This document shows positions 53,536 to 61,385 of a stretch of DNA of 64,000 bases, piece by piece; the first letter of the stretch is position 1, and each line of letters begins with the position of its first letter. The notes under the pieces are model-generated. The model searched no databases, was not told the origin of the DNA, and saw only the letters and a program-made list of their open reading frames with translations. A program made the position numbers and the translations under genes. The DNA is from Methylobacterium radiodurans. GTDB taxonomy: Bacteria > Pseudomonadota > Alphaproteobacteria > Rhizobiales > Beijerinckiaceae. Location: assembly GCF_003173735.1 (NCBI RefSeq), contig NZ_CP029551.1:4169001-4233000 (forward strand), written 5' to 3'.

Positions 53536-53627
53536 CTTGGCGGTAGCGCCGCGCTACCGCCGCCCGTCGGCGGGAAATGTACCCGGCCGAGCTGAAACCT
53601 TTTCCGCGCCACCGGCCTTTGGTTCGC

Positions 53628-54008
53628 ATGAATTCTTCCGCTGCGTCCCCGCCCGTTGTCGCCCTCGTCGCCGAAGATGAAGCGCTCCTCCGGATGGAAG
53701 CCGCCGACACGCTGGAGGAGGCCGGGTTCAAGGTTCTGGAGGTGACGAGCGCGGATGCCGCGATGCGCCACCTGGAGGGGACGGGCGGCATCGACCTGCT
53801 GTTCACCGACGTGAACATGCCGGGTGAGCTCAACGGCCTCGATCTGGCACGAGCGGTCGCCGACCGGTGGCCGGCGATCACCATCATCGTCTGCTCGGGC
53901 GCGACGCGGCCGCAGCCCGGTGAGCTGCCGCCAAGGGCTCGGTTCATCGACAAGCCCTACTCGCCCGGCCTGGTGAAGAAGGTACTGCGCGAGTTGCGAG
54001 CGGCGTAG
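53628..54008 (+). CDS. Single-domain response regulator
   Basis: A 126-residue receiver domain with no output. Acidic pocket AEDEALL, phosphoacceptor Asp61 in LLFTDVNMPG, conserved Ser in IVCSGAT and Lys in FIDKPYS. It follows the HWE kinase by about 90 bases in the same direction and is the probable partner. Such regulators can serve as phosphate sinks or inputs to the general stress response (SdrG-like). ATG 53628 (MNSSAASPPVVALVAEDEAL) fits the domain; ATG 53577 is also in frame. Confidence 0.9.
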   Translation: MNSSAASPPVVALVAEDEALLRMEAADTLEEAGFKVLEVTSADAAMRHLEGTGGIDLLFTDVNMPGELNGLDLARAVADRWPAITIIVCSGATRPQPGELPPRARFIDKPYSPGLVKKVLRELRAA

Positions 54009-54165: not shown

Positions 54166-54711
54166 ATGGCCGCCAAGCAGAAGACCTTGCCTGATGCTTT
54201 CTATGAGACCCTCAAGGACGTGTACTACGCCGAAAAGCAGTCCGTGCGCGCGCTGAAGAAGTCGGCCAAGGCAGCCGAGCACGAGGAACTGCGCCAAGCG
54301 TTCGAGACGCACGCCGAGGAGAGCGCCAATCAGGTCGAACGCCTCCAGCAGGTGTTCGAGATCATCGGCAAGCCGGCCCGGGCCAAGACCTGCGAGGCCA
54401 TGCAGGGCCTCGCCGCCGAGATGGAGGAGGACCTGGAGGACTTCGGGGACAGCCCGGCCGCGGACGCCGTGCTGGCGGCCTGCGCCCAGGCGGTCGAGCA
54501 CTACGAGATCGCCCGCTACGGCACCCTGAAGACCTGGGCGACCCAGCTCGGCTACGACGACGCGGCGAAGCTGCTGGACGAGACCCTGCAGGAGGAGAAG
54601 AAGACCGACCAGCTCCTTTCCGAGATTGCCGAGCGCATCAACGTCGAGGGCGCCGGGGACGATGCCGGAGAGGGGGCCCCTAGGGGGAAGGGTGGGCGCA
54701 AGGCTACCTGA
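54166..54711 (+). CDS. DUF892 (YciE/YciF-like) ferritin-fold stress protein
   Basis: A 181-residue four-helix-bundle protein of the DUF892 family. Carboxylate and His positions expected of a ferritin-like di-metal site are visible: YYAEKQ, HAEESANQVE, EHYEIARYG and EEKKTDQ. Family members are induced by osmotic, desiccation or oxidative stress; the reaction is unknown. AAGGAGACAGGAG lies just before the ATG. A Gly/Lys-rich tail (GAPRGKGGRKAT) may bind nucleic acid. Its position in a block of stress-signalling genes suggests it is a member of the regulon. A hairpin follows. Confidence 0.92.
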   Translation: MAAKQKTLPDAFYETLKDVYYAEKQSVRALKKSAKAAEHEELRQAFETHAEESANQVERLQQVFEIIGKPARAKTCEAMQGLAAEMEEDLEDFGDSPAADAVLAACAQAVEHYEIARYGTLKTWATQLGYDDAAKLLDETLQEEKKTDQLLSEIAERINVEGAGDDAGEGAPRGKGGRKAT

Positions 54712-55010: not shown

Positions 55011-57023
55011 TCAGCCGTGCTTGGGCCGGAACGCCAGAACTTGACCCTCGGACCGCAGGGTACCGACCAAGGCCCTGGCCAGCTCGGCCTGCCCGAACGG
55101 CTTGCTCAGGCGGGCGATCCCGGCGAGCTGATCCTCGGGGAGTTCGGCATAGCCGCTTGCCAGGATCACCGGCAACGCGGGGTACTCCGACCCGATCGCC
55201 TCGATCAACTGGGCGCCGGTCACGCCCGGCATCATCTGATCCGTGATCACGAGGTCGACGTCGTCCGTCCGCCGCAGGACACGCAGCGCCTGCTCGCCCG
55301 AGCTCGCCTCCAGCACGGCATGCCCGAGGTCCTCCAGCATGGCCGCGGTGTTCATCAGGACGAGCGGATCGTCGTCGACGACCAGCACCGTGAGCGCCTG
55401 CAGGGCGGGTAGCGCGGGATCCGGCTGAGTCGCATCCTCCCGCAGGTTGCCGGTCTCAGCCTCGGGCAGCCACAGCTCCGCGGTTGTCCCCTGGCCTGGG
55501 GTGCTCTTCAGGATCAGGCGTCCGCCTGACTGTTCCGCAAAGCCATGCACCATCGAAAGGCCGAGGCCGGTGCCCTTGCCGATGCCCTTGGTGGTGAAGA
55601 ACGGGTCGGCCGCGCGGGCGAGGGTCTGCTCGTCCATGCCCTCGCCCGTGTCGGTGACCGACAGGCAGACGTAGCGGCCCGGCTTCAGCCCAGCGACCTC
55701 CTCTGCGATCACCCGCTCATCGCGCGCGCCGATGGTGATGGTGCCACCCAGCGGCATGGCATCCCGGGCGTTCACGGTCAGGTTGAGAAGGGCGAGTTCC
55801 AGCTGGCTGGCATCGGCGAAGGCGAGCGGGAGCTGCAGCGGGAACTGGGTGCCGACAGGAATGGTCGAGCCGATCGAGCGCTGCAGCAGCTCGGCCATGC
55901 CGCGGACGAGTTCCGGCACGTCGATGTTGCCGGTAGCCAGTTCCTGGCGGCGCGCGAACGCGAGCATGCGCTTGGTCAGCGTGGCGCCGCGCTCTGCGGC
56001 CTGGATCGAGTTGTCGATGAACTGCAGCAGCTTGCGGTCGTGCGGCAGGCGCTTGCGGGCCAGGTGCAGGTTGCCGAGCACCACGGCCAGCAGGTTGTTG
56101 AAGTCGTGCGCCACGCCGCCGGTCAGCTGGCCGATGGCCTCCATCTTCTGGGACTGGATGAAGCGCGCCCGCGTGGCGTCGAGCTCCTCCTGCGCCTTCT
56201 TCCGTTCGGTCACGTCGCGCGTGATCTTGGCGAAGCCGACCAGCTCATCGTGCTCGCCGCGGATGGGGTCGATGATCACGTGCGCCCAGAACCGCGTGCC
56301 GTCCTTGCGCACGCGCCAGCCCTCGGCCTCGAAGCGGCCCTCGGTGGCCGCGGTCCGCAGGGCCCGGGCGGGGAGCGCGGTGGCCCGGTCCTCCTCGGTA
56401 TAGAAGCGCGAGAAATGCTCGCCGATGATCTCCTCGTCGGCGTAGCCCTTGAAGCGCTGCGCCCCCTTGTTCCAGCTGGTGATCCGGCCCCGAGGATCGA
56501 GCATGTAGATGGCATAGTCCCGAACGCCCTGGACGAGCAGGCGGAAATGCTGCTCGCTCTGCTGCAAGGCCGCCTTGGTGGCCTGCCGCTCGCTGAGGTC
56601 ACGCGTGACCTTGGCGTAGCCGACGAGCGTGCCGTCCTCGCCGCGTATCGGATCGATCAGCACGTGCGCCCACATCAGCGAGCCGTCCTTGCGCACCCGC
56701 CACCCCTCCTGCTCGAAGCGGCCCTCCGTGGCCGCGATCTGGAGGGCACGGCGTGGCAGGTCAGTGGCCTGATCCTCGGGAGTGTAGAAGCGGGAGAAGT
56801 GCTCGCCGATGATCTCGGCGTCCGCGTAGCCCTTGAAGCGCTGGGCGCCCCGGTTCCAGCTTACGACACGCCCGGTCGGATCGAGCATGTAGATCGCGTA
56901 ATCGACGATGTTCTCGACCAGCAAGCGGTAACGATCGTTGTCGAGCACTGCTGCTTCGATCGCCGTCGATGCACTAGTTACTTCATCGGATGCTGTGCCG
57001 GGGCGGAGGCGATCATCAACCAT
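55011..57023 (-). CDS. PAS-PAS hybrid histidine kinase with receiver
   Basis: A 670-residue soluble hybrid kinase. Two nearly duplicated PAS domains (about 30-145 and 155-270) share DYAIYMLDP-GR and GAQRFKGYAD-EIIGEHFSRF. HisKA follows, with the phosphorylated His306 in GGVAHDFNNLL, then a HATPase with N-box LNLTVNARDAM and the G1/G2 boxes (DTGEGMD, GTGLGLSM). A C-terminal receiver has acceptor Asp595 in VITDQMMPG. The near-identical PAS pair points to recent internal duplication. The output partner is not encoded next to it. It is convergent with the DUF892 gene. Confidence 0.93.
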   Translation of the reverse strand: MVDDRLRPGTASDEVTSASTAIEAAVLDNDRYRLLVENIVDYAIYMLDPTGRVVSWNRGAQRFKGYADAEIIGEHFSRFYTPEDQATDLPRRALQIAATEGRFEQEGWRVRKDGSLMWAHVLIDPIRGEDGTLVGYAKVTRDLSERQATKAALQQSEQHFRLLVQGVRDYAIYMLDPRGRITSWNKGAQRFKGYADEEIIGEHFSRFYTEEDRATALPARALRTAATEGRFEAEGWRVRKDGTRFWAHVIIDPIRGEHDELVGFAKITRDVTERKKAQEELDATRARFIQSQKMEAIGQLTGGVAHDFNNLLAVVLGNLHLARKRLPHDRKLLQFIDNSIQAAERGATLTKRMLAFARRQELATGNIDVPELVRGMAELLQRSIGSTIPVGTQFPLQLPLAFADASQLELALLNLTVNARDAMPLGGTITIGARDERVIAEEVAGLKPGRYVCLSVTDTGEGMDEQTLARAADPFFTTKGIGKGTGLGLSMVHGFAEQSGGRLILKSTPGQGTTAELWLPEAETGNLREDATQPDPALPALQALTVLVVDDDPLVLMNTAAMLEDLGHAVLEASSGEQALRVLRRTDDVDLVITDQMMPGVTGAQLIEAIGSEYPALPVILASGYAELPEDQLAGIARLSKPFGQAELARALVGTLRSEGQVLAFRPKHG

Positions 57024-57584: not shown

Positions 57585-58310
57585 TCAGCCCGTCCGTGCC
57601 CCCATGACCGCCAAGGTCACCTCGTCCTGGCCGAGGTCGCCGCCACCGTAGCCGAGAAGTCCGGCCAGGCGCTCGCGGGCGCGGGAAACACGGCTTTTCA
57701 CCGTCCCGACCTGGCAGCGCATGACCTCGGCGGCTTCTTCGTAACTCAGCCCTTCCAAGGCGACGAGGACGAGAGCCTCCCTCATCACGTCCGGAAGCCG
57801 GTCGAGCGCCGTCCGCACGTCCTGCAGGTCCACCCGCCCAGGCTGCTCGGGTATGACGGACAGTCGGTCCGTGAACTCGCCCTCCACGTCTTCCACCTCG
57901 CGTCCCCGCTTGCGCTTGACGGTGAAGAATTGGTTGCGCGTTATCGTGAATAGCCACGCGTCGAGGTTCGTGCCGGCCCGGAAGCTGGCACGGCTTCGCC
58001 ACGCCCGCAGCAGCACGTCCTGCACGACGTCGTCCGCCGTCACGTGGTCGCATCCCAGCGATCTGACGTAGCGACGAAGACTCGGCACGGCCGCCAGCAA
58101 GCCGGTTCGGAACGCCTCGGCATCCCTATCGTCCGCCTCCATCAGCGCTTGGTCGAGGCGAGCCAGCAGGTTCGCGAAATGGGCCGGCGGCTCGGCGACG
58201 ATGGCGGGATCCGCGTAGGCGACCGCGAGCATCCGGCCCAGGTACCGGCGAACCGCGTCCGGAAGGTCCGGAATCCCGCAGGACACGGCGGCAGGGCAAC
58301 TCTCGATCAT
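57585..58310 (-). CDS. EcfG-type ECF sigma factor with a NepR-like N-terminal segment
   Basis: A 241-residue sigma factor. Region 2 (about 70-135) has VTADDVVQDVLLRAW and NLDAWLFTITRNQF. Region 4 (about 170-225) has LPDVMREALVLVALEGLSYE and the helix-turn-helix VGTVKSRVSRAR. These are features of the EcfG general stress group. EcfG proteins usually start just before region 2; this one has about 60 extra residues. Residues 16-56 align without large gaps to the NepR anti-sigma core of the neighbouring gene: (V/Q)RR-(L/I)G--L---YA…AEPP-HFANLLARLD against APLDERLAELLNSID. The product may therefore carry its own inhibitor-like or PhyR-binding segment. ATG 58310 is preferred; GTG 58340 is also in frame. 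Confidence 0.85.
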   Translation of the reverse strand: MIESCPAAVSCGIPDLPDAVRRYLGRMLAVAYADPAIVAEPPAHFANLLARLDQALMEADDRDAEAFRTGLLAAVPSLRRYVRSLGCDHVTADDVVQDVLLRAWRSRASFRAGTNLDAWLFTITRNQFFTVKRKRGREVEDVEGEFTDRLSVIPEQPGRVDLQDVRTALDRLPDVMREALVLVALEGLSYEEAAEVMRCQVGTVKSRVSRARERLAGLLGYGGGDLGQDEVTLAVMGARTG

Positions 58311-58550
58311 TCGGTTCTCGGGGCTGGGCGTTGCGTACACTCTCGCTTGAACCCCCTTTCGCCGGCAAGCGGCGGTTCTGCCGGGAACGCGGCTTGCCGA
58401 TCGCGACTCACGGCAGAAACGTCCGTCATAGACCGCCCGGCCGCCGTATGCGGCGCGCCCGCCGTGAACCGCGCAACCGCATCAGCCGTGATCGCCGTAG
58501 TGGTTCGGCCGGCAGCCGCCGTAAGGGCCGCGATGGAAGTCGAAGCCGCA

Positions 58551-58796
58551 CTAGGACCAAGGACCAGCGAGGAGGCTGTCATCGTTGTCCGCGAACGGCT
58601 TCTTCGGCGCCGCAGCATCGATGCTGTTCAGCAGCTCCGCAAGGCGCTCGTCGAGCGGCGCGCGAAGCGTAGGGGCATACAGGTGCTGAAGGTGGTGCCC
58701 GATGCGACGCTGAGCGTCCACGGAGAGACCCGGCCCTTCCGCTCGCGTGGGCGACTCCGCTAGGTGGCGCTCGTCGTTCGCAGGGTCGTCGGCCAT
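58551..58796 (-). CDS. nepR: NepR-like anti-sigma factor
   Basis: An 81-residue protein. The NepR core QRRIGHHLQHLYAPTLRAPL then ERLAELLNSID is clear; in this family it binds the EcfG sigma factor and is released by phosphorylated PhyR, switching on the general stress response. The N-terminus (MADDPANDERHLAESPTRAE) and C-terminus are disordered, as usual. GAGG lies five bases before the ATG. The sigma factor gene lies 240 bases downstream on the same strand. No PhyR gene is in the window. Confidence 0.88.
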   Translation of the reverse strand: MADDPANDERHLAESPTRAEGPGLSVDAQRRIGHHLQHLYAPTLRAPLDERLAELLNSIDAAAPKKPFADNDDSLLAGPWS

Positions 58797-58874
58797 GAGC
58801 CTCACGTAGCGCTCAGCCCTTGGTCGCCCAGATCCGGATGCCCTGCGGTATGCCGGGCTTGTCCCGATGGTAGG

Positions 58875-59341: not shown

Positions 59342-60118
59342 CTACAGCTCGATGACCAGGCCCGGGTCGAAGCCGGTCGCTTCCGTCGGATACCCGTGCG
59401 GGTTGCAAAGCACGCGCGTCGCGCCGATCCGGTAGTCGAACCGGTCGTGGACGTGTCCATGAACCCAAAGCGTCGGGCACGCCTCTTCCACGAGGGCGTC
59501 CAGCCTGGAGGCATAGGCGGGATTGAGCGGACCGTCGCGGAACCGTTCGGCGACGCTGCGCGCGCTTGGGGCGTGATGGGTCACCACCACGTGCGGATTG
59601 TCGGGCGTCGCCGGCAACCGTGCGAGCGCTCCGGCGAGGAACGCGCGCGAGCGGACGTGCAGGGCGAGGGCCTCTTCCGGGCGGAAACGCAGCCATCTCG
59701 GCCGCGTCGCCCACCTGATCAGCCTGTGGTCGTTGAGTCCCGACCGCGCGTCACGCATCGAGGCAGCCCGCAGCTCCGGACCGTCCAGATCGTAGTCCGT
59801 CCACAGCGTGCATCCGGAAACGGCCACGTCCCCGAAGGTCACGGTGTCGTTCTCCAGGAGATGGATGCCACCCTCGCTCGCCGCCGCGCGTCCGCGGGCC
59901 AGTTCCTCGGCAAAGGTCCGGCGATAGAACTCGTGATTGCCCGCCACGAGCACGACCTGCATGTGCGGACGGATGGCCGCCGCAAGCCACTCCACGGCTT
60001 CCGTTAGGCCGCCGCCCACGTCGCCGGCGACGATGGCCACGTCCGCTTCCGGGATGCGCGGGGGCCGCCAAGGCGCGCCGGCGTCTCGGTGAAGGTCGGA
60101 GAAGATCCACAATCTCAT
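59342..60118 (-). CDS. Calcineurin-like metallophosphoesterase
   Basis: A 258-residue cytoplasmic phosphoesterase with the full motif set: FSDLHRD (D-x-H), IVAGDVGGG, VAGNHEFYRR (GNHE), VVTHHAPS and WVHGHVHDRF (GHxH). It resembles the YkuE/Icc-like "predicted phosphohydrolase" group found on plasmids and phages. The substrate is unknown. ATG 60118 has GGGAGAGCG directly before it; the frame stays open far upstream without similarity. It is unrelated in detail to the other phosphoesterase at 21614. Confidence 0.9.
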   Translation of the reverse strand: MRLWIFSDLHRDAGAPWRPPRIPEADVAIVAGDVGGGLTEAVEWLAAAIRPHMQVVLVAGNHEFYRRTFAEELARGRAAASEGGIHLLENDTVTFGDVAVSGCTLWTDYDLDGPELRAASMRDARSGLNDHRLIRWATRPRWLRFRPEEALALHVRSRAFLAGALARLPATPDNPHVVVTHHAPSARSVAERFRDGPLNPAYASRLDALVEEACPTLWVHGHVHDRFDYRIGATRVLCNPHGYPTEATGFDPGLVIEL

Positions 60119-60491
60119 CGCTCTCCCCTCTCCTTGATCTTGCGCGGCGGTCGGCACGAGCCGCGGCTGGGCGGAATGATTCCACCGAATCCGGGACGTG
60201 CCGCCGTGCTCGGAGGATGGCGGGACGTGCGGACGGGGCCGGAAGGCGATATTCGCGCATAGGCCGCAGCGACATCCGGGACGAGCGCCCCCTCCCCGCT
60301 CGTCGGTCGGACGGACGCCCGTCGGCCTTCGGACTTCGCCCCCTCGAAGCGCCGACGCAGGGTTCCCGTCCGACCACGCACCGGATCCGCGGGCGGGGCC
60401 CGTGCCCGGCTCGACTGATCCCGGTGTTCGAACCGACCCTGCGGGGAATGTGCGCCGTTGCGGTCCGGACGAGGGCGCACCGACGAACCGG
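60119..60491. other. Intergenic region, no supported gene
   Basis: About 370 bases between two leftward genes. Frames from both flanking genes run on into it without recognisable sequence. Nothing else seen. Confidence 0.4.
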
Positions 60492-61385
60492 TCAGCCCGC
60501 GTCGTTCCCTTGTCTCCGCGATCGGAGGACCGCCGCGCGCGGCGTGCGAGCCATCCTGGGGTTGGCGTGGGCCTCGGGGCGCCTCCGAGCCGGCGGCAGG
60601 GACGGGGTTCGCGTGCTCCGCCCGGGCATACCCGCGCCTTCGAGCCGCTCGAACTCGGCGGAAAGCGCAAGGAGCCTGTCGCTGGTCCGACGTTCGCGCT
60701 CCAGCTCGCGCGCGGCCATCAGCGCGGCGAGGGTCGCTGCCTCGATGCGGCGTGCGTGAGGATCGGCGGCCACGGCGATCGCAAGGGAAGCGACGAGCAC
60801 GGCCGTCCTGAGGATCGCGGGCGGCAATGCCTCGCCGACCAGGACGGGGATGTCGGCCTGCCCCAGCCGGGGCGCCATGAACGGCAGGAGACGCGTCGCG
60901 AACGGCAAGGGGACCGGGCCCGATGCCGCGAGCGACGCCTGGGTCCACAGGTTGACCTGGTGCGAGCAGGGCAGGAACCAGGGCGGAGCGGGACGGGGAG
61001 CCTCGCCGCCGGCATCCGGTCCGTCCGACGCCCATGCATCGAAGCGGGCAGCGCTCATCGCACGCGCGGAGGCGGGATGATCGCGTCCGACCGTCACGAC
61101 GGCATCGAGCGCGACGCGCACCTGTCCGTCGCGCAAGCCGTCGATCGGGAGCGCCAGGACGAGGTCCCGTCCCTGCTCTTCCGCTGCCCGCATGGCGTCG
61201 AGCAAGGCTCCGGTACGGATCGTATCGACATGCGAGACGCGTGGACCCGCGCCCCGTCGGGACAGGGGCAGCGCCGTCGGCTCCGCGGCGACCTCGACGG
61301 CCGCGCCTGCGCTGGCGAGGCCGTGGGCGATCAGGAGGGCCGCCGCGGGTCCGGCCGCGTCGTCGGAGAAGACACCGATGCGCAT
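60492..61385 (-). CDS. ParA/MinD-like protein without P-loop, copy A
   Basis: A 297-residue protein starting MRIGVFSDDAAGPAAALLIA. The first strand-loop-helix is laid out like the deviant Walker A of ParA/MinD ATPases (V-F-S-D-D-A-A-G-P-A-A-A), but the KGGxGK(S/T) lysines are absent. A later strand LVLALPIDGL sits where Walker B would be. The region TRLLPFMAPRLGQADIPVLV then ILRTAVLVASLAIAVAAD matches the divergent gene at 61880, so the two are paralogues. The C-terminus is a charged helix ending in a basic tail. GTG 61391 is an alternative start. An extended -10 promoter lies 45 bases upstream. The role is unknown; plasmid partition or scaffold function is a guess. Confidence 0.68.
   Translation of the reverse strand: MRIGVFSDDAAGPAAALLIAHGLASAGAAVEVAAEPTALPLSRRGAGPRVSHVDTIRTGALLDAMRAAEEQGRDLVLALPIDGLRDGQVRVALDAVVTVGRDHPASARAMSAARFDAWASDGPDAGGEAPRPAPPWFLPCSHQVNLWTQASLAASGPVPLPFATRLLPFMAPRLGQADIPVLVGEALPPAILRTAVLVASLAIAVAADPHARRIEAATLAALMAARELERERRTSDRLLALSAEFERLEGAGMPGRSTRTPSLPPARRRPEAHANPRMARTPRAAVLRSRRQGNDAG

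Follow-up and report, generated by a model that had tools for sequence, protein, structure and literature searches.

EcfG proteins with NepR-like extensions

In Methylobacterium extorquens, EcfG sigma factors carry an N-terminal extension of approximately 55 residues that resembles NepR and that, within Alphaproteobacteria, is limited to Methylobacteriaceae (Francez-Charlot et al. 2016; PMC4814048). The main-text parts of that study ascribe the extension to the EcfG proteins of strain AM1 in general, suggest an ancient nepR-ecfG fusion, credit the resemblance to NepR to reference 4 of the paper and locate all six AM1 ecfG genes away from the phyR locus. Binding of NepR in vitro was obtained only with EcfG1 deprived of the extension, and in two-hybrid assays NepR bound only the truncated forms of EcfG1 and EcfG5, the latter less strongly (PMC4814048). 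Two starts yield a full-length EcfG1 and a form shorter by 14 residues, and both isoforms reportedly interacted with NepR in vivo in pull-down experiments and were capable of complementation; full-length tagged EcfG1 and EcfG2 complemented the sextuple mutant, and EcfG2 seems to be constitutively active (PMC4814048). We found no test of the extension in the portions of four further papers that were covered (PMC8999054, PMC8103513, PMC6599016 and PMC7083833).

Two other known arrangements are pertinent. In the canonical nepR-ecfG operon of Alphaproteobacteria, for example that of Sphingopyxis granuli, where the two genes overlap by 4 bp, nepR is located directly upstream of ecfG, and NepR and EcfG are encoded as two proteins (PMC7083833). 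Some members of ECF36 combine sigma and anti-sigma factor in one chain, but their extensions contain transmembrane helices, not NepR, and belong among those activated by proteolysis (PMC8999054).

The window analysed here, a stretch of 64,000 nucleotides of the Methylobacterium radiodurans genome, contains an ecfG paralogue that shares with the AM1 genes the 55-60 NepR-like N-terminal residues, the presence of several paralogues per genome and the lack of a detectable EcfG-type promoter in front (PMC4814048). Like the canonical operon, the locus has a nepR gene upstream and, as in some ECF36 members, the window protein joins sigma and anti-sigma parts in one chain, unlike the two separate products of the canonical operon. 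It further differs from AM1, for which the main-text parts of PMC4814048 report no separate nepR beside a fused ecfG, in that a separate nepR precedes it by 240 bp in the same orientation. The initial annotation, which knew of no characterised fusion, was mistaken on this point, given that the M. extorquens fusion has been described and partly tested (PMC4814048). The window EcfG is a further case of a published trait of Methylobacteriaceae, known since 2016. The resemblance to NepR itself reportedly goes back to a 2009 PNAS paper, taken to be the above-mentioned reference 4.

The ecfG locus and its neighbourhood

The ecfG gene occupies positions 57585..58310 of the minus strand and encodes 241 aa from the ATG at 58310 to the stop at 57585; the open frame extends to a GTG at 58340 and comprises 251 aa, and residues are numbered below in this longer frame. 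The ATG at 58310 is most likely the start, to judge from the comparison with P0001, a relative of 84% identity that begins there. The database prediction from the same genome (P0002, 215 aa) begins at an inner ATG, residue 37, which falls within the NepR-like segment and would cut it. This start is probably too late because P0001 is identical at 19 of the 26 residues immediately upstream of the inner ATG, which favours the longer form. The sigma part (57588..58115, minus strand; residue 76 to the C-terminus) matches Pfam sigma regions 2 and 4 above the cut-off and is clearly of EcfG (ECF15) type, its top PDB match being 5uxx_A (4.5e-45), a Bartonella quintana sigma factor solved with NepR. A VIA-align comparison covered mainly residues 66-235 and is thus uninformative on the extension, which comprises the 60-65 N-terminal residues; the NepR-like segment proper spans residues 26-67 (58140..58265, minus strand).

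The separate nepR is located at 58551..58796 of the minus strand, with an ATG at 58796 and a possible GTG start at 58805, and its end is separated from the ecfG ATG by the 240 bp mentioned above. Its product scores 19.3 bits against PF18557 (E 8.9e-4), below the cut-off of 25.7, hence we refer to it as NepR-like; a phmmer search seeded with it against the PDB sequences gave no match. The initial annotation placed both the EcfG-type sigma factor and the neighbouring nepR correctly. Elsewhere in the genome, at 4.066-4.067 Mb, a PhyR-type sigma-like match (77 bits) is found beside a strong nepR match. The EcfG-type promoter motif GGAAC-N15-18-GTT occurs 6 times in the window, with 4.75 occurrences expected by chance; none is close before the two genes, the nearest match on the same strand (60486-60508) being some 1.7 kb upstream of nepR.

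The gene adjoining ecfG on the same strand (55011-57023, minus strand) encodes a hybrid histidine kinase with two PAS domains, HisKA, HATPase and a receiver domain. The kinases of PhyR are usually of the HWE/HisKA2 type; given its Pfam HisKA match, this one is not obviously of that type. Also near the locus are genes for a receiver-domain protein (53577-54008, plus strand), a DUF892 protein (54166-54711, plus strand) and a calcineurin-like phosphoesterase (59345-60070, minus strand).

Homology of the extension to NepR

Residues 11-75 alone match no family in Pfam or NCBIfam, and PF18557 matches neither the segment nor the whole window protein. Further comparisons were made with two profiles of NepR sequences from outside the genus, one of 28 sequences, 8 of which had entered via loci found with an EcfG query, and one of the 20 sequences that remain when those 8 are removed. 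The separate nepR scores 24.0 and 19.2 bits against these profiles, respectively. The segment of the window EcfG scores 8.6 bits against the 28-sequence profile, as high as 1 of 5000 shuffles (3718 of which obtained a score), and 7.1 bits against the 20-sequence profile, as high as 4 of 5000. In a six-frame scan of 1027 stretches of the window, the 28-sequence profile ranked nepR first (23.4 bits) and ecfG second (5.1 bits, with the third stretch at 4.5), and with the 20-sequence profile the ecfG stretch took rank four at 3.7 bits. Taken by itself, the window segment resembles NepR above chance, but weakly. The initial annotation had proposed a profile search of just this region, in which a match to the curated family was not obtained. 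It had also regarded the combination of no NepR match and predicted disorder as speaking against a NepR domain; the curated match is indeed missing, but the segment is predicted to be helical and not disordered. Ten consensus positions, defined as residues common to 12 real NepR rows, are kept in the window protein (Gly35, Leu38, Tyr42, Pro52, Phe55, Leu58, Leu59, Leu62, Asp63 and Ala65, with position 63 being Glu or Asp in NepR), and the residues originally singled out as NepR-like are borne out by this comparison. Among 80 aligned relatives, L34, G35 and L62 are conserved in at least 90%.

The case for homology is carried by the relatives. The extension of P0001 reaches 13.9 bits against the 28-sequence profile and 11.9 against the 20-sequence profile, with 0 of 5000 shuffles as high in either case, and those of other EcfG proteins reach up to 31.3 and 25.4 bits, respectively. 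In a genome search, PF18557 exceeds its gathering score within two EcfG frames of the same genome (L003, 28.4 bits; L004, 29.9 bits), the former scoring 25.3 when searched as a protein, just below 25.7. The gathering score is also exceeded in the EcfG proteins P0094, which bears the NCBI name 'NepR family anti-sigma factor', P0095 and P0120; P0116 gives 13.1 bits and P0111 no match. NepR and sigma domains occur jointly in 7 of the 120 matches listed, from among 2323 homologues. Profile-profile comparisons from which the window gene was excluded yielded probabilities of 96.8% and 96.6%. A chance resemblance between helices, with no homology involved, could draw on the failure of the window segment to match any curated family and on the four shuffles that equalled it with the stricter 20-sequence profile; set against relatives that pass the Pfam gathering score, a profile-profile probability of 97% and the location of the segment in the operon place of nepR, it is extremely improbable. 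We accept, from these sequence comparisons, that the N-terminal extension of the window EcfG is homologous to NepR, because its relatives match NepR far better and not on the strength of the window protein alone. As in the NepR-fused EcfG proteins of Methylobacteriaceae, a NepR-homologous extension precedes region 2 with no stop codon in between. The NepR-like domain reported in the initial annotation is accordingly real, on the scores of the relatives, the profile-profile comparison and the operon position, and the extension is not one that recurs in ordinary EcfG proteins devoid of NepR similarity: the extensions of the others are NepR-like too, often more so than that of the window protein.

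Origin and spread of the fusion

To the 171 loci tried we applied a lenient NepR threshold of 3 bits; L156 lacks the motif used, leaving 170 classified loci, among which L099 and L003 denote a single place. The ecfG gene is fused in 47 loci, nepR is in the ecfG frame behind a stop codon in 25, and it is in another frame just upstream in 91. No NepR match of at least 3 bits was found in the remaining 7 loci, 5 of which (L015, L025, L030, L042 and L043) show the extension when aligned and entered the tree as fused. The distance from the NepR core to the sigma domain is 24-54 bases in fused genes and 31-164 bases in the others. The NepR core thus has a similar position in fused and unfused loci, which implies that the extension stands in the place of nepR; loss of a stop codon or a frameshift between nepR and ecfG could have been the route of fusion. 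In other Rhizobiales, nepR immediately precedes ecfG, in some cases in frame with it and divided from it by one stop codon.

In a phylogenetic tree of 155 sigma domains, a single branch (support 97/96) separates 48 fused rows and L007 from every unfused row and L104, and the fused label requires 2 changes, compared with a mean of 41.7 after shuffling. The tree is midpoint-rooted; provided that the root lies on the unfused side, as appears plausible, we infer a single old fusion. Collinearity and the tree together indicate that the boundary between nepR and ecfG was most likely lost in the ancestor of Methylobacterium and Microvirga. The protein of L104, a locus from genome G270 of the same family, is a fused NepR-EcfG that groups with unfused sigma factors and perhaps represents a second, independent fusion.

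In all 59 genomes of the genus, the best match begins at query residue 26 or earlier and contains no stops, from which it follows that each genome has an EcfG with the extension. Named fused loci among those classified come from Methylobacterium (7) and Microvirga (2) only, in agreement with the published limit to Methylobacteriaceae; no fusion was found among the classified named loci outside these two genera, within the best 80 of at least 562 relatives, nor among the 25 loci from beyond the family (L129-L153) that the order search supplied, this being a check of fetched loci and not of all matches. Matches of the L144 type, in which the extension seems to be covered with no stop codon, were rejected as fusions because nepR is read there in the wrong frame.

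Within the M. radiodurans genome, the extension is absent or much reduced in the paralogues L005 and L007. The former (1343-2073 of the locus, plus strand; G000:C1, about 1280.3-1281.1 kb) is an unfused pair in which nepR and ecfG overlap at an ATGA, resembling the canonical operon (PMC7083833), and falls on a long branch on the unfused side of the tree. Neighbouring coordinates indicate unfused tandem pairs in four further genomes of the genus (G008, G033, G035 and G039).

A subclade with a separate nepR beside the fused gene

The window EcfG falls, on a long branch, into a tentatively supported subclade of 17 rows (80/94). At a threshold of 12 bits, 14 of the 17 subclade loci have a separate nepR no more than 1.5 kb from their fused ecfG, compared with 0 of 22 fused loci fetched from the rest of the genus (21 distinct places); the comparison covers the best-matching fetched loci and not every EcfG gene in the genus. 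The orientation varies: in 13 subclade loci nepR is convergent behind ecfG, whereas the nepR of the window precedes ecfG and shares its strand. Fused segments within the subclade score at most 9.4 bits and those elsewhere up to 27.1 in the same comparison, although some loci outside the subclade (L002, L015, L039, L042 and L043) have equally weak extensions. The association of a separate nepR with a weak extension involves one clade and so one evolutionary event; it suggests that NepR acting in trans may have taken over while the fused copy diverged. Such a separate nepR beside a fused ecfG is not mentioned in the main-text parts of PMC4814048 and looks new.

Structure models, selection and possible function

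The AlphaFold model of the window protein has helices at residues 28-43 and 53-83 (pTM 0.44), the second of which continues into the first sigma helix; in a second model, of an EcfG1-type relative and built with additional paired NepR rows, the helices are separate, at 26-45 and 50-65 (pTM 0.43). The two helices expected by the initial annotation were thus predicted, but neither model packs the extension confidently on the sigma part, and with these pTM values a docked arrangement is not supported by the models. In 22 pairs of relatives, which do not include the window gene and several of which share a sequence, dN/dS is 0.00-0.62 in the extension, with more than one synonymous change per site in four of these comparisons, and 0.01-0.13 in the sigma part; the value for the extension is the higher one in 20 of the 22. 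Low values that nevertheless exceed those of the sigma part indicate that the extension is constrained, albeit less than the sigma part.

The reading that we favour, and regard as reasonably likely, combines descent from a nepR-ecfG fusion with competition between a cis-docking segment and NepR acting in trans. The window EcfG would be one of several paralogues in a Methylobacterium-type genome that derive from this fusion, and its NepR-like segment may occupy, in cis, the sigma2/sigma4 surface used by NepR. Once docked, it would compete with trans NepR and set the amount of sigma factor that NepR can capture, serving as a shield and threshold and not as a tight lock. In the subclade, the neighbouring nepR would probably provide the main inhibitor in trans, and the fused copy would have drifted from the NepR consensus; PhyR might be able to release the segment. 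The in vitro binding of NepR by truncated EcfG1 alone means that NepR binding is hindered by the segment, whose occupation of the NepR site in cis is the simplest explanation, although the reported pull-down of NepR by both EcfG1 isoforms indicates that in cells the extension is not a full block (PMC4814048). The competition with NepR envisaged in the initial annotation is accordingly supported for EcfG1, and for EcfG1 only (PMC4814048).

A true cis-inhibitor, with the fused segment barring sigma from RNA polymerase until bound by PhyR~P in the manner of NepR, would account for the retained NepR consensus positions and the purifying selection on the extension in relatives, and the genome does contain a PhyR-type match beside a strong nepR match. 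However, M. extorquens EcfG2 seems constitutively active and full-length EcfG1 and EcfG2 complement and are thus active (PMC4814048), which argues against a tight lock and weakens the self-inhibited sigma factor that had been proposed for this locus; with docking absent from the AlphaFold models as well, we consider such an inhibitor unlikely. At the opposite extreme, the extension would be a relic of the fusion with no regulatory role of its own, retained since its second helix joined the sigma2 fold. The single helix 53-83 of the window model, the elevated dN/dS of the extension and its absence or reduction in L005 and L007 all fit a relic, but this reading is quite improbable in view of the conservation of L34, G35 and L62, the in vitro binding of NepR by truncated EcfG1 only (PMC4814048) and the separate helices of the EcfG1-type model. 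Similarly doubtful is a two-layer switch, in which the cis segment would sit in the NepR groove and hide sigma from the neighbouring NepR, and stress signals would swap the NepR copies; the signal could come through PhyR~P or through some other partner, for example the NepR-receiver protein that most genomes of the genus encode. For tests of the cis-docking and competition reading and of its alternatives, the genus offers natural contrasts: fused EcfG proteins with and without an adjoining nepR, strong and eroded NepR segments and, in the same genome, an unfused nepR-ecfG pair.

A NepR-receiver fusion protein

The NepR-receiver protein was identified in the M. radiodurans genome at G000:C1:3402819-3403364 (L068, 1474-2022, plus strand), where a NepR-like domain is fused to a response-regulator receiver domain. 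Its Pfam NepR score is 27.1 bits in the genome search, above the cut-off, and 24.3 as a protein, just below it, and the Response_reg score is 43 bits. At the level of titles and abstract openings, we found no naming of such a fusion in the literature. In 51 of the 59 genus genomes, the best match starts no later than query residue 3 and ends no earlier than residue 179 of 182, and all 20 relatives fetched match the NepR profile (13.6-22.6 bits). A match of the same type, covering residues 15-175, is present in a single genome from a different genus of this family (L263) and scores 19.9 bits against the 20-sequence NepR profile.
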